This document shows positions 27,453 through 39,077 of a stretch of DNA of 39,077 nucleotides, piece after piece. The notes below the pieces were generated by a model, which was not told where the DNA came from, made no database searches, and was given only the letters and a program-made list of their open reading frames with translations. Position numbers and translations under genes: made by a program. The DNA lies in contig NZ_WUUU01000011.1 of the NCBI RefSeq assembly GCF_009831555.1, positions 1 to 39,077 on the forward strand, read 5' to 3'. The DNA comes from Halobacterium bonnevillei (GTDB lineage Archaea > Halobacteriota > Halobacteria > Halobacteriales > Halobacteriaceae). Position 1 is the stretch's first letter. Every line of letters begins with the position of its first letter.

Positions 27453-27470
27453 GCGGAAACATACTTCCGC
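27453..27470. promoter_or_regulatory. Distal NrpR-type operator
   Basis: GCGGAA-N6-TTCCGC, a perfect six-base-arm palindrome containing the GGAA-N6-TTCC operator established for NrpR of Methanococcus. It lies 106 bp, close to ten helical turns, from a second such site. It is upstream of the likely TATA box of the aminotransferase gene. Confidence 0.65.
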
Positions 27471-27535
27471 TATTTTGCGGCGGAGAATATCACAAATCCC
27501 GTTCAACGCCCTTTGAGGGACAATTCGGGGATAGA

Positions 27536-27546
27536 TTTATCATATC
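27536..27546 (+). promoter_or_regulatory. TATA-like box of the aminotransferase-NrpR operon
   Basis: TTTATCATATCC in otherwise GC-rich DNA. The expected transcript start, near 27563, would lie within the proximal NrpR-type operator, giving a 20-base leader. A second AT-rich word (TAGAATAC, 27553-27560) could instead give a leaderless start. Confidence 0.5.
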
Positions 27547-27559
27547 CGCGCCTAGAATA

Positions 27560-27575
27560 CGGAAGTAGAGTTCCG
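27560..27575. promoter_or_regulatory. Proximal NrpR-type operator overlapping the predicted transcript start
   Basis: CGGAA-GTAGAG-TTCCG, a perfect palindrome matching GGAA-N6-TTCC. Its place over the predicted start of transcription fits repression. It ends eight bases before the ATG at 27583. The regulator is probably one of the two NrpR-like proteins of this locus. Confidence 0.7.
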
Positions 27576-27582
27576 GTTACAG

Positions 27583-28983
27583 ATGGCTCCACCAACCACC
27601 GACGACCTGTCGACGGACGAACTACTGGCTCGCGAGTACGACCGCTACACCGACCGCACGCCGAACTCCGCGGACGTGGCCGAGACACTCCGGGAGATCG
27701 TCCCGGCAGGCGTCTGTAGCACGTTCCGCGCGTACGACCCCCATCCCGTTCACGCGGAGCGCGCAGAGGGCGCGTCGATGTTCGACGTGGACGGCAACGA
27801 GTACCTCGACTTCGCGCTGAACAACGGCACGCAGCTCGTCGGCCACGCACACCCGACGCTCACCGACGAAGTGAGCGACCAGCTCGAGGACGGCACGCTG
27901 TACACGCGGCCGTCGGAGCTCATCGGGTACGCCGCGCAGCCCCTCGTCGACCGCTGGGACGCCATCGAACAGGTCCGGTTCACGAACAGCGGGACCGAGG
28001 CCGTGATGCACGCGACGCGGCTCGCTCGCGCGTACACCGGCCGCGAGAAACTCATCCGCATGGAGGGTGCGTACCACGGCGCCCACGACCCGGCGCTCGT
28101 GAGCAAGATGCCGCCGGTCGAGCAGGCCGGGCCGGCCAGCGACCCGCGCCCGGTCAAGGAGTCGCAGGGCATTCCCGACGCGGTGCCGGAGGACGTACTG
28201 CTCGCGCAATACAACGACCCGAACAGCGTCGAGCGCCTGCTCCGCGACCACGGCAGCGAGGTTGCGGCGATTCTCGTCGAACCCGCGTGCCTCAACCTCG
28301 GCCTGGTCGAGCCCGAGGACGGGTTCCTGGAGTCGGTGCGCTCGCTGGCCGACGAGTACAACGTCGTCCTCATCTTCGACGAGGTGAAGACGGGCGTCAA
28401 GCTCGCACCCGGTGGCGGCGCCGAATACTACAGCGTTCAACCGGACCTCGTCGCGCTCGCGAAAGCAATCGGCGGCGGCTACCCGGTCGGCGCGTTCGGC
28501 GGCCGCCGCGACATCATGGAACTCGTCGCGGCCGACCTCCAGGAGGGCGTCGCGACGGGCGCGGCCCACTACGGCACGTACAACGGGAATCCGCTGGCGC
28601 TGCGCGCGGTGGGCGTGACGCTGCGGGAGATTCTCACCGCGGACGCCTACGACCACGTCACCGGGCTCGCGGAGATGCTCGCGGACGGCTACCGCGAAAT
28701 CGCGGCTGACGCCGGCCTCGACGCGCAGGTCAAACACGTGGGGTCCCAGGGGATGGTCCACTTCACGGACGAACCGATACGCACGTTCCGCGACTGGGAG
28801 CACATCGACGAACAGTTCCACGAGGCGTACTGGATCAGCATGCTGAACCGCGGCGTCATCCCGCACCCGCACGACGCCTCACAGCAGTGGACAGTCAGCG
28901 TCCAGCACACCGCCGAGGACGTGGAGGCTCACCTCGAGGCGTTCGCTGCCATCGCGGATGACCTCGCGGCGGCCCAGGAGTGA
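27583..28983 (+). CDS. Class III aminotransferase, glutamate-1-semialdehyde-aminomutase-like
   Basis: PLP enzyme of 466 residues. VRFTNSGTEAVMHATRLARAY binds the phosphate, VVLIFDEVKTGVKLAPGG carries the PLP aspartate, and LALAKAIGGGYPVGAFGG holds the Schiff-base lysine. The sequence is closer to glutamate-1-semialdehyde aminomutases than to ornithine or GABA transaminases. A housekeeping heme role is unlikely because it leads a nitrogen-type operon behind two NrpR-like operators. The likely task is amino-group transfer on an amine or amino acid taken up by the neighbouring transporter; the substrate is unknown. Seven bases separate it from the regulator gene that follows. Confidence 0.85.
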   Translation: MAPPTTDDLSTDELLAREYDRYTDRTPNSADVAETLREIVPAGVCSTFRAYDPHPVHAERAEGASMFDVDGNEYLDFALNNGTQLVGHAHPTLTDEVSDQLEDGTLYTRPSELIGYAAQPLVDRWDAIEQVRFTNSGTEAVMHATRLARAYTGREKLIRMEGAYHGAHDPALVSKMPPVEQAGPASDPRPVKESQGIPDAVPEDVLLAQYNDPNSVERLLRDHGSEVAAILVEPACLNLGLVEPEDGFLESVRSLADEYNVVLIFDEVKTGVKLAPGGGAEYYSVQPDLVALAKAIGGGYPVGAFGGRRDIMELVAADLQEGVATGAAHYGTYNGNPLALRAVGVTLREILTADAYDHVTGLAEMLADGYREIAADAGLDAQVKHVGSQGMVHFTDEPIRTFRDWEHIDEQFHEAYWISMLNRGVIPHPHDASQQWTVSVQHTAEDVEAHLEAFAAIADDLAAAQE

Positions 28984-28990
28984 CGCGTCG

Positions 28991-30004
28991 ATGGCATCCG
29001 ACCCCGACCAGCGGACGTACGACATCCTCCGATTGCTGGCGGCGCACGAACCCGTGGGCAGCGTCCACCTGACGGAGCACCTCCGGGAACGCGGCTACTC
29101 GCTGACCGAGCGGACGGTCCGACTGACGCTCTCGGACCTCGACGACGAGGGCCTCACCGAGAAGGCCGGCGGGAAGGGCCGGCGGTTGACGGCGGCCGGT
29201 CGCGCGGAACTCGAACGCGGCGGCGTCAGCGGCCGCGTCCAGCACGTCCGCGAGCGGCTCGCGGACCTCACGAGCCGCGTGACCTACGACCCGGATAGCG
29301 ACGACGGCGACCTGGTAGTCGGAACGGTGCGCGTCCCGGAGACAGAGCGGTCGACGCTCGAGGAACTGCTCGCGGGACTCGACGACTCACCGCTCGGACC
29401 GGTCACCGCCTCCGTCGAGCCGGTGACGGTCGACGGAATCGACTCCCTGGAGGTGGCGGCACCGTCGAGTGTCACGGTCGACGGCGTGCTGTTGTCCAGC
29501 GGCATCGACAGCCACCCCGACACGCTCGGCCTCGTGGAGTACGACCCCGACCCCGACCCGGGGTCGCTCCCCTACGAGGACGACGACCCCGGTGCGGATG
29601 GCGGCGCGATTCGGCGGTTCACCGACGTCATCGGCGACGAACGCGCGACCCTGGACCTCGTGTCACTGCTCATCGACGCCGGCCGAACCGACGTTTCCAG
29701 CGCACTGGACGGCGACACCGGGTTGCTCGTCGCCGACAACCGCGAGGTGCCGCTGGCGAAGTACGACACTGCCCGCGAGCGGGCAACGAGAACGCGAGAG
29801 CGACTCGGCGGCGTCCTCGACTTGCGGCGGCCCCGGGAGTCCGGACCGTTCCCCTGGGGCGAACCGGGATGGACGTTCGCGTCGCTGACGTACGCGGGGA
29901 CCGCGGAGTGCGTCATCTCGCTGTGCGTGGAAGCCGGAATCGCTGCCGACTGGGAGACGCTCGCCGGGACGCGTCCCCGGTCTGACCTCTCTAGCACCCG
30001 CTAG
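28991..30004 (+). CDS. NrpR-like transcription regulator, first copy
   Basis: 337 residues. An N-terminal winged helix (QRTYDILRLLAAHEPVGSV, RGYSLTERTVRLTLSDLDDEGL) is followed by a DUF128/NRD-type effector domain from about residue 75 to the end, with LGPVTASVEPV, PSSVTVDGVLLSSGI and GGVLDLRRPRE. In methanogens NrpR represses nitrogen genes and is released by 2-oxoglutarate. This copy has only one effector-domain region. It is co-transcribed with the aminotransferase behind two GGAA-N6-TTCC sites, so it probably controls itself. It is paralogous to the protein at 35079-36179 over its whole length. Confidence 0.82.
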   Translation: MASDPDQRTYDILRLLAAHEPVGSVHLTEHLRERGYSLTERTVRLTLSDLDDEGLTEKAGGKGRRLTAAGRAELERGGVSGRVQHVRERLADLTSRVTYDPDSDDGDLVVGTVRVPETERSTLEELLAGLDDSPLGPVTASVEPVTVDGIDSLEVAAPSSVTVDGVLLSSGIDSHPDTLGLVEYDPDPDPGSLPYEDDDPGADGGAIRRFTDVIGDERATLDLVSLLIDAGRTDVSSALDGDTGLLVADNREVPLAKYDTARERATRTRERLGGVLDLRRPRESGPFPWGEPGWTFASLTYAGTAECVISLCVEAGIAADWETLAGTRPRSDLSSTR

Positions 30005-30177
30005 CAGCGGCAGTACGAGCGAACGAATCGGGGCCTGTTCTGAGCCGTCCGCTCTCGGCTGAATAGTTTCCACGCCGAAAGGGGCGGATCGAACAGCCGT
30101 GGGCCCCAGTAGTGGCGGCGTCGCGTACGAAGGCTTATGTATCCCTACCTGTGATTGACTGGCACGGTGGCAAACAC

Positions 30178-31287
30178 ATGCCAGGTAACAATTCACACTC
30201 TCGGCGGGAGTTCATCCGGACGACTGCAGCTGGCGCGGGAGCGGTCACGCTCTCCGGGCTCGCAGGCTGTACAGGCATCCTCGGCGGCGGCGGTGACAGC
30301 GGACCGCTGTCCGTAGCCGTCTACGGGGGCGTGTTCAAGGAGGTCATGGACGAACACCTCTTCGACCCCTTCCGCGAGGAGGTCGACTTCGAGGTCGAGT
30401 CCAAGGCCGCGCCGACCTCCGAGGAAGCGCTCACGCAGTACGACAACGCCGTCTCGGCGGGCGAAGCGCCCGTCGACGTCGCCATCATGGCGAACACCGG
30501 CGTCCTCAAGGGCCTGAACAAGGACCTGTGGCACTTCTGGAGCGACGACGACTTCGACAACCTCCAGTACATCACTGACAACCTCATCAACGAGACCGAC
30601 GACGGCGTCGCCGCGATCGGCGCGCTGTCGTGGTACATCAACCTCGTCCAGAACACGGAGCAGTTCGACGAGACCATCGACTCGTGGACCGCGCTCTGGG
30701 ACGACGAGTACAAGGGCGACCTCGCGCTCCTCAGCTACGCGTCGAACTCCTTCCTCCTCGAAGTCACGGCCGAAGTCCACTTCGACGGCAAGGAGATGCT
30801 GAACAGCAGGGACGGCATCGAGCAGTGCCTCGAGAAGCTCCAGGGCGTGAAGTCCCAGGCGGGCATGTGGTACGAGAACGAGGCGGAGTTCCAGTCCCGC
30901 CTCCGCAACGGCGAAGTCCCGGCGGGGATGCTGTACAACGACGTCACCCTGGTCATGCAGGACAAGGGCGCGCCGGTGCAGACGAACTTCGTCGAGGAGG
31001 GGTCGATCCTCGACTCCGGGCTGTGGGTCACGCTCAAGTCCTCGAACCTCAAGGAGGAGGCCCGCCAGTTCATCGACTACGCCAGCCAGCCGGACGTTCA
31101 GGACACGGTCGCGCAGAACCTCTACACGAGTCCGACGATTAAGCGCGAGCACTCTAGCATCGACGACGAGACCTACGAGAAGATCGCCGGCCCGGGTCCG
31201 TCCGAGGCCATCACCCCGAAGTACGAACTGTACGTCGAGGAAGCTGACTGGGTCAACGAGAAGTGGAACGAGTTCATCACCAACTGA
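30178..31287 (+). CDS. Substrate-binding lipoprotein of a spermidine/putrescine-type ABC transporter
   Basis: Extracellular solute receptor, 369 residues. It starts with a Tat lipoprotein signal: SRREFIRTTAAGAGAVTLSG followed by the lipobox LAGC. The mature part has the PotD/PotF-like pattern VAVYGGVFKEVMDEHLFDPF, then WTALWDDEYKGDLALLSY and RNGEVPAGMLYNDV. The ligand could be a polyamine, agmatine or a related cation or amide; the family also includes other specificities. The ATG at 30178 is preceded by a TATA-like GGCTTATGT near 30137, giving a separate promoter for the transport genes. No GGAA-N6-TTCC site is found here. Confidence 0.88.
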   Translation: MPGNNSHSRREFIRTTAAGAGAVTLSGLAGCTGILGGGGDSGPLSVAVYGGVFKEVMDEHLFDPFREEVDFEVESKAAPTSEEALTQYDNAVSAGEAPVDVAIMANTGVLKGLNKDLWHFWSDDDFDNLQYITDNLINETDDGVAAIGALSWYINLVQNTEQFDETIDSWTALWDDEYKGDLALLSYASNSFLLEVTAEVHFDGKEMLNSRDGIEQCLEKLQGVKSQAGMWYENEAEFQSRLRNGEVPAGMLYNDVTLVMQDKGAPVQTNFVEEGSILDSGLWVTLKSSNLKEEARQFIDYASQPDVQDTVAQNLYTSPTIKREHSSIDDETYEKIAGPGPSEAITPKYELYVEEADWVNEKWNEFITN

Positions 31288-31290
31288 CGC

Positions 31291-32367
31291 ATGAGTGGAA
31301 TCTCTCTCCAGGATATCTCTAAGCGGTACTCTGGCTCGGTGCTCGCGGTCGACGACATCGACCTCGAGATCGAGAGCGGTGAGTTCGTCACGCTCGTCGG
31401 GCCCTCCGGCTGCGGGAAGACCACGACCCTGCGGACCATCGCGGGCTTCGAGAAGCCGACCGCCGGAACGGTCCACATCGGTGGCAAGGACGTCACCGAC
31501 GCGCCGCCGTACGAACGCAACACCGGGATGGTGTTCCAGGACTTCGCGCTGTTCCCGCATCTGACCGTCCACGAGAACGTCGCCTACGGCATGGAAGCGG
31601 ACGGTGGCTACACGGACGAGGAGATCGACGCACGCGTCGCGGAGATGCTGGAACTGGTCGAACTCCCCGGCACGGGCGACCGGAAGCCCGACCAGCTGTC
31701 GGGGGGCCAGCAGCAGCGCATCGCGCTCGCCCGCGCGCTCGCCCCGAAGCCCGACGCGTTGCTGCTGGACGAACCGCTCGCGAGCCTCGACAAGAAGCTC
31801 CGCGAGCAGATGCAGGTCGAGTTGCGCCGCATCCAGCAGGAAGTCGGCATCACCACCGTCTTCGTCACGCACAACCAGGAGGAAGCGCTCACGATGTCCG
31901 ACCGCCTCGCCGTGATGAACGAGGGCAAGTTCGAGCAGGTCGGCCCGCCGGGCGACGTCTACAACGAACCCGAGACGCGGTTCGTCGCCGACTTCATCGG
32001 CACGGCGAACATCTTCGACGGTGACGTGACACAGACCGAGGACGGCTACGTGAGCGTCGACTGCGGCGACGTCGAGGTCGAGTCGACTGCGACCAGGGAA
32101 ACCGCCGTCGGCGACGACGTCTCCGTCGTCGCGCGACCCGAGCGGTTCAACTTCCAGTCGTCTACCGACGACGACCGGGACGAGAACGTATTCACGGGCG
32201 AAGTCACGTTCCGGCGCCACCTCGGGAGCAGCGTCGAGTACCGCATCGAGACGGCCGAGGGCCGCGAAGTCGTCGTCGTGCGGCCGAGCGGGCTGGACGA
32301 ACACGAACCGGGCGAGCAAGTGACGGTTTCCGTCGACGCCGACAACTGTCGGGTCGTCTCCACGTAA
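31291..32367 (+). CDS. potA: ABC transporter ATPase, PotA type
   Basis: 358 residues. Walker A GPSGCGKTTT, Q-loop MVFQDFALFPHLTV, signature LSGGQQQRIALARAL, Walker B ALLLDEPLASLD and switch histidine VFVTHNQEEAL. The C-terminal 120 residues form the TOBE domain usual for PotA/FbpC-type ATPases. Three bases separate it from the receptor gene and one base from the permease gene. Specificity is inferred from neighbours; FbpC-like iron or thiamine importers share the architecture. Confidence 0.93.
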   Translation: MSGISLQDISKRYSGSVLAVDDIDLEIESGEFVTLVGPSGCGKTTTLRTIAGFEKPTAGTVHIGGKDVTDAPPYERNTGMVFQDFALFPHLTVHENVAYGMEADGGYTDEEIDARVAEMLELVELPGTGDRKPDQLSGGQQQRIALARALAPKPDALLLDEPLASLDKKLREQMQVELRRIQQEVGITTVFVTHNQEEALTMSDRLAVMNEGKFEQVGPPGDVYNEPETRFVADFIGTANIFDGDVTQTEDGYVSVDCGDVEVESTATRETAVGDDVSVVARPERFNFQSSTDDDRDENVFTGEVTFRRHLGSSVEYRIETAEGREVVVVRPSGLDEHEPGEQVTVSVDADNCRVVST

Positions 32368-32368
32368 C

Positions 32369-34225
32369 ATGGCGACCGAAACATCTACCAGCGACGGTGG
32401 CGAGTCGGGCCGCGCGGGCCTCAAGCAGAACGCCAAGTACTACATCCTCTCCTACCCGCTCGCGTGGCTGGTGTTCGTGTTCCTCGCTCCGCTGGGGATG
32501 CTGTTCATGTTCAGCTTCTGGGTGCACGTCCCCGGAACGGGGTACACGGCCGGGTTCACGCTGGACAACTACGCGCGGTTCTTCACCAGCTCGCTGTACG
32601 TCCAACAGCTCTGGGTCACGGTGGAACTGGCGCTCGTGACGGCCGTCGTGTCCCTGTTGCTGGGCTATCCACTGGCGTATTACCTCGCGCGCATCGACCG
32701 GCCGTGGCTGCGAAACGTGCTCCTGATAACGATCATCTCCTCGCTGTGGATCACGTACGTCATCCGGGCGTACGCGTGGCAGGTCATTCTCGCGTCCCGC
32801 GGCATCCTGAGTTCGCTCGGCGTCGCGACCGGGATTCTCGGGAGCCACCAGTCGTTCTACCCCGGATACTGGGGGCTCGTCGTCGGGATGGTGTACGTCT
32901 TCCTGCCGTTCATGGTGCTGTCGCTGTACAGCAGCATCCGGAACCTCGACGGGGAACTGCTGGAGGCGTCGAAGAACCTCGGCGCCGGCCCCGTGCGGAC
33001 GTTCCGCCGCGTGACGCTGCCGTTGACGAAGAACGGCATCGCGAGCGGGACGGCGCTGGTGTTCATCCTCGCGCTCGGCGCGTACGTGCTGCCGCGCCTG
33101 CTGGGCACGCCCAACCAGCGCACCCTACCGGTGCTCATCGAGCAACAGATCATGAGCGAGAGCAACTACCCGTTCGGGGCGGCGATGAGCGTCCTGCTCA
33201 TCGTCGTGATGCTCGTGTTCCTCTGGGCGCTCATTCGCATCACGAACGTCTCCGCAGCGAACATCGGCGGCGCGGAGGGCGTCACCGGTGAGGACGAGAC
33301 GTCGACGACCAGCGGCCCGGGCGCGCTTTCGGGCCTCTGGAGCCGACTGGGCGGCGTCGTCGCGGCGACCGGTCTCAGCCGGGTCTACGGGAGCGTCGCG
33401 TCGGCCGTCTCTGACCGGGTCGAGGCCGTCGACTCGGACACCCGCGAGTCGGTCATCGGTACGTCCTTCCGCGTGTACGTCGCCGCCGTGATGCTGTTCA
33501 TCGCTGCGCCGCTGGGCATCATCGTCGCGGTGTCCTTCACGCCCGAGGAGTTCCTGACGTTCCCGCCGGGTGGCTTCTCCACGCGGTGGTACGTCGAGTT
33601 CTTCACCGACCCGGCGTGGGTCCGATCGCTGGTCAACAGCCTCACCATCGCGGCGGCGGCGGCGCTGCTGTCGACGTCCATCGGCGGCATCCTCGCGTTC
33701 ACGCTCGACCGCTTCGACTACAAGTTCGGGTCGCTCATCGGGACGTTCGGCGTCCTGCCGATTCTCGTGCCGCCGGTCATCATCGCCGTCGCCTTCCTCG
33801 TCTTCTTCCTCCAGATCGGCCTGACGGGGACGCGGACGGGTATCATCGTCGCGCACGGCATCTTCTACGCGCCCCTGCCGTTCATCCTCATCACGCAGGG
33901 ACTCAGCGAACTGAACCGCACCTACGAGGAAGCCGCGATGAACCTCGGTGCGTCGCCGGTCCGCACGATCCGCACCATCACGTACCCGCTGCTGCGTGCG
34001 AACGTCGTCTCGGGTGCGCTGTTCGCGTTCATCCTCTCACTGAACGAGTACATCATCGCGTGGCTGCTGTCGCTGTTCCTGGTGAAGACCATCCCGATCC
34101 AGATCTTCAACCAGCTGCGGTACTCCTATCCGCCGACCATCGCGGCGGCGAGCACCGTGTTCATCCTGCTCACCGTCGTCGTCATGACCGCGATCAATCG
34201 GCTGTCCGGGGGGATCTGGGAGTGA
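32369..34225 (+). CDS. Fused PotB-PotC-type permease
   Basis: One 618-residue protein holds both membrane halves of the importer, which are normally separate proteins of about 280 residues. Each half has about six helices and its own ATPase-coupling EAA loop: EASKNLGAGPVRTFRRVTLPL near residue 200 and EEAAMNLGASPVRTIRTITYPL near residue 525. A polar linker of roughly 60 residues (about 300-360) joins them, with its ends in TGEDETSTTSGPG and VDSDTRESV. The frame is unbroken through the linker. The stop overlaps the amidase GTG start, tying transport to metabolism. Confidence 0.92.
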   Translation: MATETSTSDGGESGRAGLKQNAKYYILSYPLAWLVFVFLAPLGMLFMFSFWVHVPGTGYTAGFTLDNYARFFTSSLYVQQLWVTVELALVTAVVSLLLGYPLAYYLARIDRPWLRNVLLITIISSLWITYVIRAYAWQVILASRGILSSLGVATGILGSHQSFYPGYWGLVVGMVYVFLPFMVLSLYSSIRNLDGELLEASKNLGAGPVRTFRRVTLPLTKNGIASGTALVFILALGAYVLPRLLGTPNQRTLPVLIEQQIMSESNYPFGAAMSVLLIVVMLVFLWALIRITNVSAANIGGAEGVTGEDETSTTSGPGALSGLWSRLGGVVAATGLSRVYGSVASAVSDRVEAVDSDTRESVIGTSFRVYVAAVMLFIAAPLGIIVAVSFTPEEFLTFPPGGFSTRWYVEFFTDPAWVRSLVNSLTIAAAAALLSTSIGGILAFTLDRFDYKFGSLIGTFGVLPILVPPVIIAVAFLVFFLQIGLTGTRTGIIVAHGIFYAPLPFILITQGLSELNRTYEEAAMNLGASPVRTIRTITYPLLRANVVSGALFAFILSLNEYIIAWLLSLFLVKTIPIQIFNQLRYSYPPTIAAASTVFILLTVVVMTAINRLSGGIWE

Positions 34226-35049
34226 CACCCGGCCCCGCGGACGCCCGGGTCACCGTCGTCCAGACGGAGCCGGAGTTCGGCGCCGTCGACGCGAACCGAC
34301 AGGCGACCGTCGACGCGGTCCGCGAGCACGCGGACGCCGACCTCGTCGTGCTGCCTGAACTGGCGACTAGCGGCTACGTCTTCGAGTCGCACGGGGAGGT
34401 CGACGCGGCCGCCGAACCGGCCGACGGCCCGACCGCCGAGGCCTGGTCCGCGGTCGCCTCGGAGACGGACACCTGGGTCGTCGGCGGGTTCCCGGAAGCC
34501 GACGGCGACGACCGGTACAACAGTTCGCTCGTCGTCTCGCCCGGTGGCGTCGAGGGCGTCTACCGCAAGGTCCACCTGTGGAACGAGGAGAAGCGGTGGT
34601 TCGAGGCCGGTGAGGACCTTCCCGTCTTCGACACGCCGTTCGGCCGCCTCGGCGTCCAGATCTGCAACGACGTCTGGTTCCCCGAACTGACGACGAAACA
34701 GGCGCAGTCAGGTGTCGACCTCGTCGCGGTACCGACCAACTGGGTGCCGGAGCCAGCGGACCGTCCCGCGGGGTGGACGATGGGCGTCCACCACGCCGTC
34801 GCAAACGCGAACGCCAACCGGGTGTTTTTCGCGTGCGCGGACCGCGCCGGCACCGAACGCGGCGTCACCTTCGAGGGGCAGAGCGTCGTCGTCGACCCCG
34901 ACGGCGTCCCGCTCGCGGGACCGCTGCCCGACAGCGGAAGTCACAGCGCCACCGCGGACTGCGACCTCGCGCGAGCCAGGGACAAAGCCCTCACGCCGCG
35001 CGACGACGTGCTCGCGGACAGGCGGCCCGACGTCTACGACGACCAGTAG
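34222..35049 (+). CDS. Nitrilase-superfamily carbon-nitrogen hydrolase
   Basis: 275 residues. The Glu-Lys-Cys triad is visible: LPELATSGYVF, YRKVHLWNEEKRWFEAG and VQICNDVWFPE. These enzymes hydrolyse amides, N-carbamoyl compounds or nitriles to release ammonia. In a Pot-type and agmatinase-type setting an N-carbamoylputrescine-amidase-like or omega-amidase-like activity is plausible, but the motif does not settle it. The GTG at 34222 overlaps the permease stop, so they are co-translated. It converges with the second NrpR-like gene, 29 bases away. Confidence 0.88.
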   Translation: MTPGPADARVTVVQTEPEFGAVDANRQATVDAVREHADADLVVLPELATSGYVFESHGEVDAAAEPADGPTAEAWSAVASETDTWVVGGFPEADGDDRYNSSLVVSPGGVEGVYRKVHLWNEEKRWFEAGEDLPVFDTPFGRLGVQICNDVWFPELTTKQAQSGVDLVAVPTNWVPEPADRPAGWTMGVHHAVANANANRVFFACADRAGTERGVTFEGQSVVVDPDGVPLAGPLPDSGSHSATADCDLARARDKALTPRDDVLADRRPDVYDDQ

Positions 35050-35078: not shown

Positions 35079-36179
35079 TCAGTCGTCGAGTGCGGCCGGA
35101 CGCGGCGCCGCAATCGGTCCGAGGCGGTTCCGTTCTATCGTGCCGTACAGCGTCTCCCAGTCCTCGGTCAGTCCGTACTCGTACAGCGCCGCGAGCGCGA
35201 GTTCGCCGGTGCCGCAGTACGTCAGCGTGCCGAACGCCCACGCGAGGGTCCCGTTCGAGACTGTTTCGTCCTCTCGTGGCCGCCGGAAATCGAAGACGCC
35301 GCCGAGGGCGTCCCGGGTGGCGATGGTGAGGTCCCGGGCTTCCTCGAAGCGGTTGATCGGGAACTCGCGGTCGTCACCGATGAGCAGGCCGGAGTCGCCG
35401 TCCTCGAGCAGCGGCCTGACGTTGCTGCGGCCGGCCTCGACGAGCAGCGAGATGACGTCGATGGACGACCCCTCGCCGTTGATGACGTCGACGTACCGGA
35501 CGATGCGGCCGCCACGTGATTCGCTGCCCGGGACGGCGACGTACTCCGTGCTCCCGTCGACGGGATCGTCGGCGACCGCCTCGTCGACGCATTCGTCGTC
35601 GCTCTCGGCTGAACTCGCGGTCGGCTCGTATTCGAGGACGCCCGCGGTCAACAGGTTCGCGTTCACGCCGTGTGAGAGCAGGACGCCGTCCAGCGTGATG
35701 CTGGACGGGGCCAGCAGCCGGTAGTCGCCGGGCTCGGTGTCGGAACTCTCCTCGAGGGAGACCGGGACCGGGCCGAGGGGCAACGCGTCCAGTCGCTCGA
35801 CGAGGGAGACGGCTGCCTCCACGTCGTCTTCGTCGATGAACGCGCCCGACGCGACGAGGACGCCGGCGTCCTCGACGGGGTCGTAGCTGACGCGGCTGGT
35901 CAGCGTGGCGATTTCCGCGCGGACCTGCTCCAGGCGGCCGCGGACGTCGCCCTGCTCGAGCTCCTCGCGGCCCGCTCTGGTGAGTCGACGGCCCTTCCCG
36001 GGAACTTTCTCGGTGAGACCAACGTCGTCGAGTTCCGAGAGTTTCAGGCGGATGGTCCGGTCTTTGATGTCGTATCCCCGCAGCTGCATCAGTTCGACGA
36101 GCTGGATGCTACCGATCGGCCCGTGTCGTTCGACGAGCCGGAGGATGTCGTAGGTCCGCCGGTCCAGCTCATTGCCCAT
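35079..36179 (-). CDS. NrpR-like transcription regulator, second copy
   Basis: 366 residues, with the same layout as the copy at 28991: winged helix (RRTYDILRLVERHGPIGSI, RGYDIKDRTIRLKLSELDD) then an NRD/DUF128-type effector domain (LGPVPVSLEES, PSSITLDGVLLSHGV, GGVFDFRRPRE). It is about 30 residues longer because of an acidic loop near residues 205-235. It is divergent from the agmatinase-family gene across a 108-base gap, the classical place for a local repressor. The gap lacks GGAA-N6-TTCC but has ACCAA-GGT-TTGGT at 36208-36220. The two copies may read different signals or form a heteromer. Confidence 0.82.
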   Translation of the reverse strand: MGNELDRRTYDILRLVERHGPIGSIQLVELMQLRGYDIKDRTIRLKLSELDDVGLTEKVPGKGRRLTRAGREELEQGDVRGRLEQVRAEIATLTSRVSYDPVEDAGVLVASGAFIDEDDVEAAVSLVERLDALPLGPVPVSLEESSDTEPGDYRLLAPSSITLDGVLLSHGVNANLLTAGVLEYEPTASSAESDDECVDEAVADDPVDGSTEYVAVPGSESRGGRIVRYVDVINGEGSSIDVISLLVEAGRSNVRPLLEDGDSGLLIGDDREFPINRFEEARDLTIATRDALGGVFDFRRPREDETVSNGTLAWAFGTLTYCGTGELALAALYEYGLTEDWETLYGTIERNRLGPIAAPRPAALDD

Positions 36180-36207
36180 GCTGGTCCACCGTATGGCTAC
36201 TACCTAC

Positions 36208-36220
36208 ACCAAGGTTTGGT
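36208..36220. promoter_or_regulatory. Palindrome between the second regulator and the agmatinase operon
   Basis: ACCAA-GGT-TTGGT, perfect five-base arms. It lies 30-40 bases upstream of the second regulator's ATG, over its core promoter, and about 40 bases upstream of the TATA of the divergent operon. Candidate operator for either direction. Confidence 0.4.
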
Positions 36221-36287: not shown

Positions 36288-36317
36288 ATGGCAATGGTTT
36301 GCCGGCTTGGGAAATAA
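36288..36317 (+). CDS. Nine-codon leaderless mini-ORF in the agmatinase-family leader
   Basis: Reads MAMVCRLGK, beginning where the transcript is expected to start. Its stop TAA shares one base with the next ATG (TAATG). Possibly a regulatory leader peptide. Evidence is promoter geometry and overlap only. Confidence 0.4.
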   Translation: MAMVCRLGK

Positions 36318-36433
36318 TGGCACGCAACGTCTTCCTCTCGATCGACCCGGTATCGACGAACTGGGGCACGGCCGCCCTCGCTCCCGTGAACGCCGAGCCC
36401 TCGACGCTCGAACGCGAGGCGGTGTCGCGATGA
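36317..36433 (+). CDS. 38-residue ORF coupled to the agmatinase-family gene
   Basis: Starts MARNVFLSIDPVSTNW and ends LEREAVSR. Its ATG overlaps the stop of the nine-codon ORF and its own stop overlaps the ureohydrolase ATG (ATGA). No family recognised. It could be a small protein or a leader whose translation governs the downstream gene. No Shine-Dalgarno sequence precedes the ureohydrolase ATG, so coupling through this ORF seems needed. Confidence 0.5.
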   Translation: MARNVFLSIDPVSTNWGTAALAPVNAEPSTLEREAVSR

Positions 36434-37437
36434 GCGACCACGAGCACAGGGCCGCTGCGTTCCGCGAATCAGTCTCCGGCGCCGACGTCGAACTCGCGTA
36501 CGCGGGCCTGGACACCTTCCTGAAGAGCGAACCGCGCGGCGTCGGCGACGTCGGCGACGTCGACGCCGCCGTCTTCGGCGTCCCCTACGACAACGCCGTC
36601 TCGAACCGGCCGGGCGCGCGCTACGGCCCGGGCGCCATCCGTGAGGCCAGCGAGTGGTGGGCGTACATCTCCACGTACAAGGGGCAACTGACGAACATGT
36701 GGAACGGCGAGCAGGTCGACTTCGACGACATCTCGGTCGCCGACGTCGGCGACGTGCCGCTGTTCCCGATGGACGTCGAGACGACCGCCGAGAGCATCAC
36801 CGCGCACGCGGCGACAATCGCCGAGCAGACGTTCCCCGTGATGCTCGGCGGCGACCACTACTGCACGTTCCCGGCGTTCCGCGGCTTCGCGGAGGGAACT
36901 GACCACGACAGCGTCGGCTTCGTCCAGATCGACGCCCACACGGACACCGTCTCCGAGAGCCCCGTGTTCGGCGCCGACTTCCACGGGTCGAGCACGGCGC
37001 GCATCGCGGACCTCCCGAAGGCCGACTACGACTCCGTGAGCCAGGTCGGCATCCGCGGCTACGAGTCCGCCGAGTACTTCGAGTTCGCCGAGGACTCCGG
37101 CATCGACCTCTACACGATGCGGGACGTCGAGGACCGGGGCATCGTCTCCGTCGTCCGCGACGCCGTCGAGTCCGCCGCCGAGGACACGGACGCCGTGTAC
37201 GTCACCTTCGACATCGACGGCGTGGACCCGTCGGTCGCCCCGGGCACCGGGACGCCCGTCCCGGGTGGCCTGACCGCCCGCCAGGCGCTGTTGACGATGT
37301 CCGTGCTCGGCAGCCACGACGCCGTCGGCGCCGTCGACATGATGGAGGTCGCGCCCCGCTACGACAGCACCGAAGGGACGGAGCGACTCGCCGCTTACCT
37401 GCTCGTGAAACTGCTCGAACGGAAATTCATGGTGTGA
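36430..37437 (+). CDS. speB: Agmatinase-family (ureohydrolase) metalloenzyme
   Basis: Binuclear metal hydrolase of guanidino compounds releasing urea, 335 residues. Metal-ligand motifs are complete: MLGGDHYCTF, QIDAHTDT, and TFDIDGVDPSVAPGTGTPVPGG. FGVPYDNAVSNRPGARYGPGAIR is the usual N-terminal element. The family includes agmatinase, guanidinobutyrase, guanidinopropionase and guanidine hydrolase; the sequence alone does not fix the substrate. No hypA/hypB-type nickel chaperones are nearby. I choose the ATG at 36430 because it overlaps the preceding small ORF; in-frame extensions to 36307 lack support. Symbol tentative. Confidence 0.88.
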   Translation: MSDHEHRAAAFRESVSGADVELAYAGLDTFLKSEPRGVGDVGDVDAAVFGVPYDNAVSNRPGARYGPGAIREASEWWAYISTYKGQLTNMWNGEQVDFDDISVADVGDVPLFPMDVETTAESITAHAATIAEQTFPVMLGGDHYCTFPAFRGFAEGTDHDSVGFVQIDAHTDTVSESPVFGADFHGSSTARIADLPKADYDSVSQVGIRGYESAEYFEFAEDSGIDLYTMRDVEDRGIVSVVRDAVESAAEDTDAVYVTFDIDGVDPSVAPGTGTPVPGGLTARQALLTMSVLGSHDAVGAVDMMEVAPRYDSTEGTERLAAYLLVKLLERKFMV

Positions 37438-37441
37438 CTCG

Positions 37442-37522
37442 ATGGGGGAACACCTACTTGCCGACGCGGCGGGAGCGACCCAGCAGCGGCCCGACGACCG
37501 AACACCGGGGGTGCGAGCGTGA
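37442..37522 (+). CDS. 26-codon ORF bridging the ureohydrolase and aminotransferase genes
   Basis: Starts four bases after the ureohydrolase stop (MGEHLLADAAG...) and ends TPGVRA. Its stop overlaps the GTG of the aminotransferase (GTGA). It resembles the coupling ORFs elsewhere in this window. A coding role is unproven. Confidence 0.35.
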   Translation: MGEHLLADAAGATQQRPDDRTPGVRA

Positions 37523-38688
37523 ACGATCCGCGACGCCCGGACCGGGAGGTCGGCGCGGCCCGACTGGGCGCCGTCTCCGAATCGGTCATCCGCGAGATGA
37601 CGCGTGAAGCCCACCGCCACGACGCCATCAACCTCTCCCAGGGCATCCCGGACGTCGACGAGGCGCCCCAGGCAATCAAGGACGCGGCGAAGTCCGCCAT
37701 CGACGCGGAGAGCCAGTACACCATCACGTGGGGGCTGCCGGACCTCCGCGACGCCGTGGCCGACCGGTACAGCGACTGGAAGGGCGTCGACTACGACCCC
37801 GAGACGGAAGTGACCGTGACGACCGGGACCAGCGAGGCGCTCGTGTCGACGCTGCTCGCGCTCGCGGAACCCGGCGACGAGGTCGTGTTCTTCGAACCCG
37901 TCTACGAGAGCTACATCCCGGCGACCCGGTTCGCGGGCGCCGAACCCGTCCCAATCGACATCACCGACAGCCTCGAACTCGACGTCGACGCCCTCGAGGC
38001 CGCCGCGGAGACCGCCAGCATCCTCGTGTTGAACACCCCGATGAACCCCACTGGGAAGGTGTTCACGCGCGAGGAACTCCAGCAGATCGAGGAGATCGTC
38101 TTCGAGCACGACCTGCTCGTGGTGACCGACGAGATCTACGAGCACATCGTCTACGACGACGACTACGTGAGTCCCGTGTCCGTCGGCGACCTGGCTGACC
38201 GGACCGTCGTCTGCACCGGGATGTCGAAGACGTTCAGCGTCACGGGCTGGCGGGTCGGGTTCTGCCTCGCGCCCGAGTACCTCTCCCGGGAACTCCGGAA
38301 GGTCCACGACTACACGACCATCTGCGCGCCGACGCCGTTCCAGCGCGCCGGCGTCGAGGCGCTGTCGCTGCCCGAATCCTACTACCAGGAGCTCTCGGAC
38401 TCCTACGAGCGCCGCCGCGACGTGCTCTGCGAGGGGCTGGCCGACGCGGGCCTCGACCCCGTCGTTCCGGACGGCGCGTACTACGTGATGGCGCGGTATC
38501 CGACCGACGAGACGGACGTCGAGTTCAGCTACCGGCTCGTCCGCGAGGCCGGCGTCGCCGTCGTCCCCGGCGGGAGTTTCTACACCGACCCCGACCCCGA
38601 GGCCGACTGGGTGCGGTTCACGTTCTCGCGGGACGAATCGACCATCAGGGAGGCCGTCGACCGCCTAACGGAGCACCGATGGTGGTGA
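37519..38688 (+). CDS. Class I/II PLP-dependent aminotransferase
   Basis: 389 residues, aspartate-aminotransferase fold type I. Motifs: INLSQGIPDVDEAPQAI, ITWGLPDLRDAV, NTPMNPTGKVF, VVTDEIYEHIVYDD, and the lysine motif GMSKTFSVTGWRVGF. Close to the kynurenine/methionine-type aminotransferases and to general class I enzymes. In this locus it may transaminate the amine or amino acid left after ureohydrolase or amidase action; substrate unknown. Start at GTG 37519, overlapping the small ORF upstream. The next gene begins 24 bases later. Confidence 0.9.
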   Translation: MNDPRRPDREVGAARLGAVSESVIREMTREAHRHDAINLSQGIPDVDEAPQAIKDAAKSAIDAESQYTITWGLPDLRDAVADRYSDWKGVDYDPETEVTVTTGTSEALVSTLLALAEPGDEVVFFEPVYESYIPATRFAGAEPVPIDITDSLELDVDALEAAAETASILVLNTPMNPTGKVFTREELQQIEEIVFEHDLLVVTDEIYEHIVYDDDYVSPVSVGDLADRTVVCTGMSKTFSVTGWRVGFCLAPEYLSRELRKVHDYTTICAPTPFQRAGVEALSLPESYYQELSDSYERRRDVLCEGLADAGLDPVVPDGAYYVMARYPTDETDVEFSYRLVREAGVAVVPGGSFYTDPDPEADWVRFTFSRDESTIREAVDRLTEHRWW

Positions 38689-38712: not shown

Positions 38713-39077
38713 ATGACTGACCTCCGAGTCTACTACGACGACGCCGCGCTCGCGCACGTGCCGCCGTCCGGGGAGTTCGACCTGCCGTGGTCCGGACGAC
38801 TCGCGGTCCAGCAACAGCACCCGGACCGACGCGAGCGCGTCGAGAACGTCGTCGCGATGCTCCGCAGCGAGCTCGACGACGTGACGACGTGGGCGTCCGT
38901 GGACCCAGCGAGCAGAACGGACCTCGAGCGCGTTCACGCCTCCGACTACGTCGACGAGATTCGAGAATGGGCCGCCGACGGCGGCGGCCGCCGGAGCCCG
39001 GAAACGGGCGGAAACGCGGAGACGTACCGCGCCGCCGTGACCGCGGCCGGTGGCGCCATCGCCGCCGCACGGCACGC
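38713..39077 (+). CDS. Histone-deacetylase-superfamily protein, acetylpolyamine-aminohydrolase-like (partial)
   Basis: The first 121 residues of a protein cut by the window end. The start resembles acetylpolyamine amidohydrolases and acetoin-utilisation proteins: VYYDDAALAHVPPSGEFDLP, then HPDRRERVENVVAML, RVHASDYVDEI and GNAETYRAAVTAAGGAIAAA. The zinc-binding motifs would lie beyond the edge, so activity cannot be judged. Position after the ureohydrolase and aminotransferase favours deacetylation of an acetylated polyamine. The ATG at 38713 lies 24 bases after the previous stop, in the same operon. Confidence 0.75.
   Translation, partial: MTDLRVYYDDAALAHVPPSGEFDLPWSGRLAVQQQHPDRRERVENVVAMLRSELDDVTTWASVDPASRTDLERVHASDYVDEIREWAADGGGRRSPETGGNAETYRAAVTAAGGAIAAARH

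Follow-up and report, generated by a model that had tools for sequence, protein, structure and literature searches.

NrpR proteins of methanogens are the closest described systems. NrpR of Methanococcus carries two NrpR domains (NRDs), and NrpRI of Methanosarcina mazei is a DNA-binding protein with one NRD. The regulon of Methanococcus maripaludis NrpR comprises nif, glnA and glnK-amtB, and the title of Lie 2005 reportedly names two operators for this protein. Methanococcus NrpR binds GGAAN6TTCC, as given in PMC2723118, and according to PMC11957540 methanogen NrpR is let go of DNA by 2-oxoglutarate. A 2019 study describes an NrpR-type master regulator as not conserved in non-methanogenic haloarchaea (PMC6801745). 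This statement, as it is worded in that source, needs qualifying, since NRD proteins turned up in about 1 in 8 genomes of the order (46 of 392). Haloarchaea do have NrpR-domain proteins, though these apparently do not serve as a global nitrogen regulator. A literature search that left most subscription journals outside its range returned no title on NrpR operators in haloarchaea.

Two such proteins, NRP1 and NRP2, are encoded in the DNA analysed here, a stretch of 39,077 nucleotides from Halobacterium bonnevillei (the window). They were compared with a sample of 47 further loci, which together with the window covers all 46 genomes with NRD proteins among the 392. The locus resembles the M. maripaludis system in its NrpR family and its GGAA-N6-TTCC core. 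It differs in that the regulator has one NRD, in that its candidate targets are local, and in that a second regulator with an apparent operator class of its own is present. The features are as follows.

27454..27469, no strand: candidate distal type A operator, CGGAA-N6-TTCCG within GCGGAA-N6-TTCCGC
27536..27541, + strand: TTTATC, TATA-like element for the aminotransferase operon, by eye from promoter comparison
27560..27575, no strand: candidate proximal type A operator, covering the predicted transcript start and ending 7 bp 5' of the ATG
27583..28983, + strand: class III aminotransferase (ATIII; PF00202, E 6.7e-57)
28991..30004, + strand: NRP1, NrpR-like, winged helix plus one NRD (PF08461, PF01995; model matches 3nek)
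30168..30183, no strand: candidate type B operator TGGCAAACACATGCCA with one mismatch, lying across the start codon of the first transporter gene
30178..31287, + strand: polyamine-type solute-binding protein of the ABC transporter (PF13416; PotD matched weakly, below cut-off)
31291..32367, + strand: ABC transporter ATPase, PotA family (TIGR01187 above cut-off)
32369..34225, + strand: ABC transporter permease, PotB-like and PotC-like halves fused (PF00528 in two stretches; PRK09497 and PRK09500 below cut-off)
34222..35049, + strand: carbon-nitrogen hydrolase, start uncertain (PF00795, E 3.1e-43)
35079..36179, - strand: NRP2, second NrpR-like regulator (PF08461, PF01995)
36207..36218, - strand: CAAACCTTGGTG, about 39 bp 5' of NRP2, an element conserved in 15 of 19 NRP2 upstream regions
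36289..36304, no strand: candidate type B operator TGGCAATGGTTTGCCG with one mismatch, in the gap separating NRP2 from the agmatinase gene
36430..37437, + strand: agmatinase-family ureohydrolase (PF00491, TIGR01230 above cut-off)
37519..38688, + strand: class I/II aminotransferase (PF00155)
38713..39077, + strand: histone-deacetylase-family protein, cut by the window end (PF00850, E 6.1e-09)

Two genes are assigned more closely, the agmatinase by clearing its curated cut-off and the transporter ATPase by clearing a polyamine subfamily cut-off; the others are assigned at family level. Since this holds for most of the genes, amine-type uptake and breakdown is what we infer for the cluster. Acetylpolyamine amidohydrolases are members of the histone-deacetylase family. 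A 38-codon open frame (36317-36433, + strand) lies directly before the agmatinase gene with an ATGA overlap, and by eye may be a small protein or chance.

The first-pass annotation had described two GGAA-N6-TTCC palindromes 106 bp apart. Both are present, with 27453-27470 reading GCGGAAACATACTTCCGC and 27559-27576 reading ACGGAAGTAGAGTTCCGG, and their cores are spaced by 106 bp. The likeness goes past the core, as both sites fit the extended form CGGAAGTA-N3-TTCCG when suitably oriented. CGGAA-N6-TTCCG occurs at no third place in the whole window with up to one mismatch. The bare core was found twice in the window against 0.27 expected, and 3 of 100 shuffles gave two copies. For CGGAA-N6-TTCCG, Markov resampling of the window gave at least two copies in 1 of 400 runs, and two copies no more than 200 bp apart in 0 of 400.

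Commonness of the sites across the genome had been named as evidence against operator function. The bare core is indeed common (44 places in 3.5 Mb, or 1 per 80 kb; 5 places for the reversed-pattern control), but CGGAAGTA-N3-TTCCG is found at these two places only in the same 3.5 Mb. It was absent from 25 further genomes of the family. Of 41 examined other core sites (41 of 42, the site on contig 193 being left out), 38 fall in open frames that run for at least 190 codons, so these sites probably lie inside genes. CGGAA-N6-TTCCG also fits at least three other core sites of the genome (L201, L210, L234).

The aminotransferase-NRP1 pair was found at 17 loci including the window (8 genera, 3 families; one genus supplies seven of the loci). 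These loci were gathered through PF01995 matches, and an independent aminotransferase search of the 392 genomes gave the same 17 genomes as the sole matches at 74% identity or more. CGGAA-N6-TTCCG is exact in all 17 orthologous promoters with a varying spacer, at a chance rate of 117 of 850000 per 60-bp promoter. Lack of conservation at orthologous operons had also been named as a refutation; the proximal site was conserved in 17/17, and GGAA-N6-TTCC in the regulated promoter, a trait of the NrpR family, is found in every NRP1 operon. The end of the site lies 2-13 bp before the next ATG at the 17 loci. In seven promoters compared by eye, the site begins 23-35 bp past a TATA-like element and so falls about on the predicted transcript start, which supports the earlier placement of the proximal copy. 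Among 12 aminotransferase paralogues (51-58% identity), none carried the site in the 500 bp before the aligned start, even with one mismatch tolerated, and three of these 12 come from genomes with NRP1. These results indicate that the palindromes are very probably operators of the NRP1 encoded in the same operon, as judged from sequence comparison.

The longer palindrome CCGGAA-N6-TTCCGG occurs somewhere in 180 of the 392 genomes and in 15 of the 17 with NRP1, so that it is telling by position only, and its whole-genome counts were set aside as an uninformative test. Seven of the 17 NRP1 genomes have one further such site. An identical 18-mer containing it is shared by two genomes with NRP1 (G127, G337) and two without (G091, G362).

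NRP1 and NRP2 are both NrpR-like, as the first-pass annotation had proposed for the protein of the controlled operon. Their scores are 63.8 and 61.4 bits for the NRD (PF01995, cut-off 25) and 48.8 and 45.1 bits for the N-terminal winged helix (PF08461, cut-off 21.4). The AlphaFold2 model of NRP1 has a mean pLDDT of 87.8. In a Foldseek comparison it matched 3nek (E 2.8e-14, TM 0.81 by target length), the regulatory domain of MJ0159 and a methanogen NRD structure, with a like fold at 20% identity. In a tree with 10 same-phylum rows as out-group, presumably from methanogens or related archaea, NRP1 (17 rows) and NRP2 (18 rows) formed separate groups with support of 81/100 and 100/99; the NRP2 of L052, the NRP2 of L082 and L069 were left out. 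The out-group open frames of 325-357 aa have a layout like that of M. mazei NrpRI. In contrast to the NrpRI/NrpRII system, no separate NRD-only partner was found in the genome of the window, whose four NRD stretches belong to two winged-helix proteins; the genome is 92% complete, and a missed gene is possible. A planctomycete metagenome contig (L159) encodes a 28%-identical relative.

The third helix of the winged helix, which we take as the recognition helix, begins at residue 40 in the NRP1 model. Its sequence TERTVR resembles GERAVR of the out-group. Residue 40 is Glu in 17/17 NRP1 and 9/10 out-group rows, and Asp or Gly in 18/18 NRP2. Three regulators (L060, L064, L074) have Gly at this position yet GGAA-N6-TTCC upstream, so the link between Glu-40 and GGAA is imperfect. 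NRP1 keeps 20 of 29 near-invariant out-group columns in the winged helix and 26 of 53 in the ligand domain, as counted on 9 out-group rows with one row dropped. Column 159 changes from Cys in the out-group to Ser in all 61 haloarchaeal rows.

General nitrogen control was not supported by a scan of nitrogen genes, a check that the first-pass annotation had named. Among the 12 NRP1 genomes examined, no exact type A or B site was found within 1500 bp upstream of 27 glutamine-synthetase-family genes or 11 ammonium-transporter genes, a further difference from M. maripaludis NrpR. A one-mismatch type A site at -422 of the L169 ammonium-transporter locus was the only such case among the 11. A global nitrogen regulon was rejected on these 27 + 11 loci, and from the sites NRP1 looks like a local, self-regulating switch of the amine-type cluster rather than a global nitrogen regulator. 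The methanogen logic might operate here as well: NRP1, with or without NRP2, would come off DNA by 2-oxoglutarate when nitrogen is short and turn amine scavenging on. The domains, fold and operator core are as in methanogen NrpR, which dissociates with 2-oxoglutarate as PMC11957540 describes, and the enzyme families present could free nitrogen from amines. The empty nitrogen loci speak against it, as does the ligand domain, which keeps 26/53 columns versus 20/29 in the winged helix and has lost the Cys at column 159, although both findings are compatible with 2-oxoglutarate. We regard this alternative as a real contender, while leaning away from it.

A second operator class, new here and missed by the first-pass annotation at the transporter and agmatinase promoters, appears to track NRP2. 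This type B palindrome, TGGCAA-N4-TTGCCA, has the size and geometry of type A; it was first spotted by eye on the NRP2 side and then counted in the same loci. All 19 NRP2 upstream regions scanned contained type B with no more than one mismatch, compared with 545 of 20000 random 350-bp stretches from the same loci. The scan left out L052, the twentieth NRP2 promoter, which has no type B site and whose NRP2 match lacks the first 108 residues. The site at 36289..36304 lies about 25-30 bp past a TATA-like element, by eye. The CAAACCTTGGTG-type element lies 36-41 bp upstream of NRP2, the place expected for a TATA box.

Each of the 21 transporter promoters had a type B site, which carries one mismatch in 18 of them, two in 2 and three in L155. 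It was exact in none of the 21, where half of the site is coding. The first gene of the transporter has CCA as its proline codon 2 in 18 of 21 cases, versus 28 of 249 proline codons further on, and this excess argues for constraint on the DNA itself. Four loci with the transporter and NRP2 in which NRP1 was not found (L062, L085, L086, L155) have type B and no type A, an absence that is partly trivial because the aminotransferase gene is missing too. Across the 392 genomes there were 30 exact type B sites, fewer than for the reversed control pattern, and hence no enrichment. For 11 of these 30, as compared by eye, an NRD gene is found no more than about 3 kb away. L077 has a further type B site (1447-1462) ahead of its deacetylase-family gene, in a genome where NRP2 is not beside the transporter. 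Other NrpR-like regulators (L056-L084), many beside agmatinase-type genes, have nearby GGTGGCAA-N4-TTGCCACC-like or mixed GGAA/GGCAA sites, which suggests that regulation of this kind extends beyond the present cluster.

NRP1 and NRP2 might instead form one pool, each binding both site types or joining in a heterodimer, with the operator classes being grades of affinity. The 14-bp frame GG-N10-CC is common to both types, sites of intermediate form (GTGGAAATATAATTCCACC is one) occur beside other relatives, and the two proteins of the window are 45% identical. In the 17 clusters, however, no CGGAA-form type A site was found other than upstream of the aminotransferase (in L045 with a further copy about 500 bp more distal), and type B sites lie at the promoters of the transporter and of NRP2 (in L077 also before the deacetylase gene). 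Together with the separate tree groups and the different helix residues, this distribution makes a shared pool possible but doubtful. It is improbable that some other, unlinked transcription factor reads the palindromes and the NrpR-like genes are bystanders. The pairing of NRP1 with its operator is deduced from sequence, and haloarchaea have many winged-helix regulators, which counts in favour of such a factor. Against it, the operator core equals the Methanococcus NrpR consensus, type A tracks NRP1, type B tracks NRP2 and its relatives, and exact type B sites gather near NRD genes in 11 of 30 cases. An RNA hairpin formed by the proximal palindrome in a short 5' leader would fit the place just 5' of the start codon in 17/17, but is very improbable, as exact copies lie upstream of the promoter in 4/17, type B sites straddle the start codon, and the predicted start at or inside the site means that the full hairpin would often not be transcribed.

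We return to direct binding by NRP1 and the question of a second type A site. The first-pass annotation had raised the distal copy and DNA looping. The distal position is limited, being exact in only 4 of the 17 loci (the window, L043, L044, L048) and present with one mismatch in L047. The other 12 loci have GGAA-N6-TTCC within the aminotransferase gene at +748 to +757, so that every one of the 17 has a second site (5 upstream, 12 intragenic), which adds support for looping and makes it plausible. L045 has the intragenic site plus another about 500 bp upstream. In these intragenic copies GGAA and TTCC are invariant, whereas the pair of amino acids encoded in between differs among loci (DG, DN, GD, GS, NC, NG, SG), as expected of an operator spacer. 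Codon chance (7 sites seen against 1.9 expected in 10 pattern-matched loci) had been considered for the intragenic site, and was dropped because the loci with this site are precisely the 12 that lack an upstream one within 350 bp. By plain combinatorics the odds of this split are 1 in 6188 with L047 and 5 in 2380 without it, figures weakened by shared ancestry, as seven of the 12 intragenic loci belong to one genus. The same-genus pairs window/L040 and L044/L045 differ as expected from the split. None of the 12 paralogue genes has the core site, but they lack the homologous codons and so are a weak control.

The exact upstream spacings (106, 139, 161 and 171) are in helical phase with a best pitch of 10.9 bp. 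The p value was 0.017 after scanning pitches of 10.2-11.2 and 0.0026 with L047 added, in a set where L043, L044, L047 and L048 share one NRP1 subclade. The helical phase of a single promoter was discarded as uninformative alone. In the lac system, looping occurs with an auxiliary operator. By this analogy there is moderate support for an auxiliary operator at these loci and, through it, for looping.

Taken together, the full model appears probable to us. An NRP1 dimer would bind CGGAA-N6-TTCCG, which overlies the predicted transcript start, and would thereby shut off the aminotransferase-NRP1 operon; this autorepression would form a negative feedback loop. An auxiliary operator, upstream or intragenic depending on the species, would strengthen repression, possibly through looping. 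NRP2 would use TGGCAA-N4-TTGCCA at the transporter promoter and at the divergent NRP2/agmatinase promoter. A small ligand on the regulatory domains, which may be 2-oxoglutarate or a pathway amine, would release NRP1 and NRP2 and switch the amine-type uptake and breakdown cluster on. The sites, their conservation and position, their co-occurrence with each regulator and the predicted fold are the observations on which the model is built; from them we infer binding, repression, the pairing of each protein with its site, looping and the ligand.

A bolder and tentative extension is that the two proteins are paired, pathway-specific amine sensors derived from a methanogen nitrogen repressor. A single base of the operator (GGAA versus GGCAA), paired with Glu versus Asp or Gly at residue 40 where the recognition helix begins, would insulate them from each other, and NRP1 would act by lac-like looping between the operator at the start site and an auxiliary one that has shifted in evolution between upstream and intragenic positions. 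If binding is confirmed, the haloarchaeal branch of NrpR would have defined operators that can be read off sequence, and the locus would show a nitrogen repressor moved to an amine-type cluster. It would also offer natural variation for how paralogous archaeal repressors avoid each other's sites, and for DNA looping.
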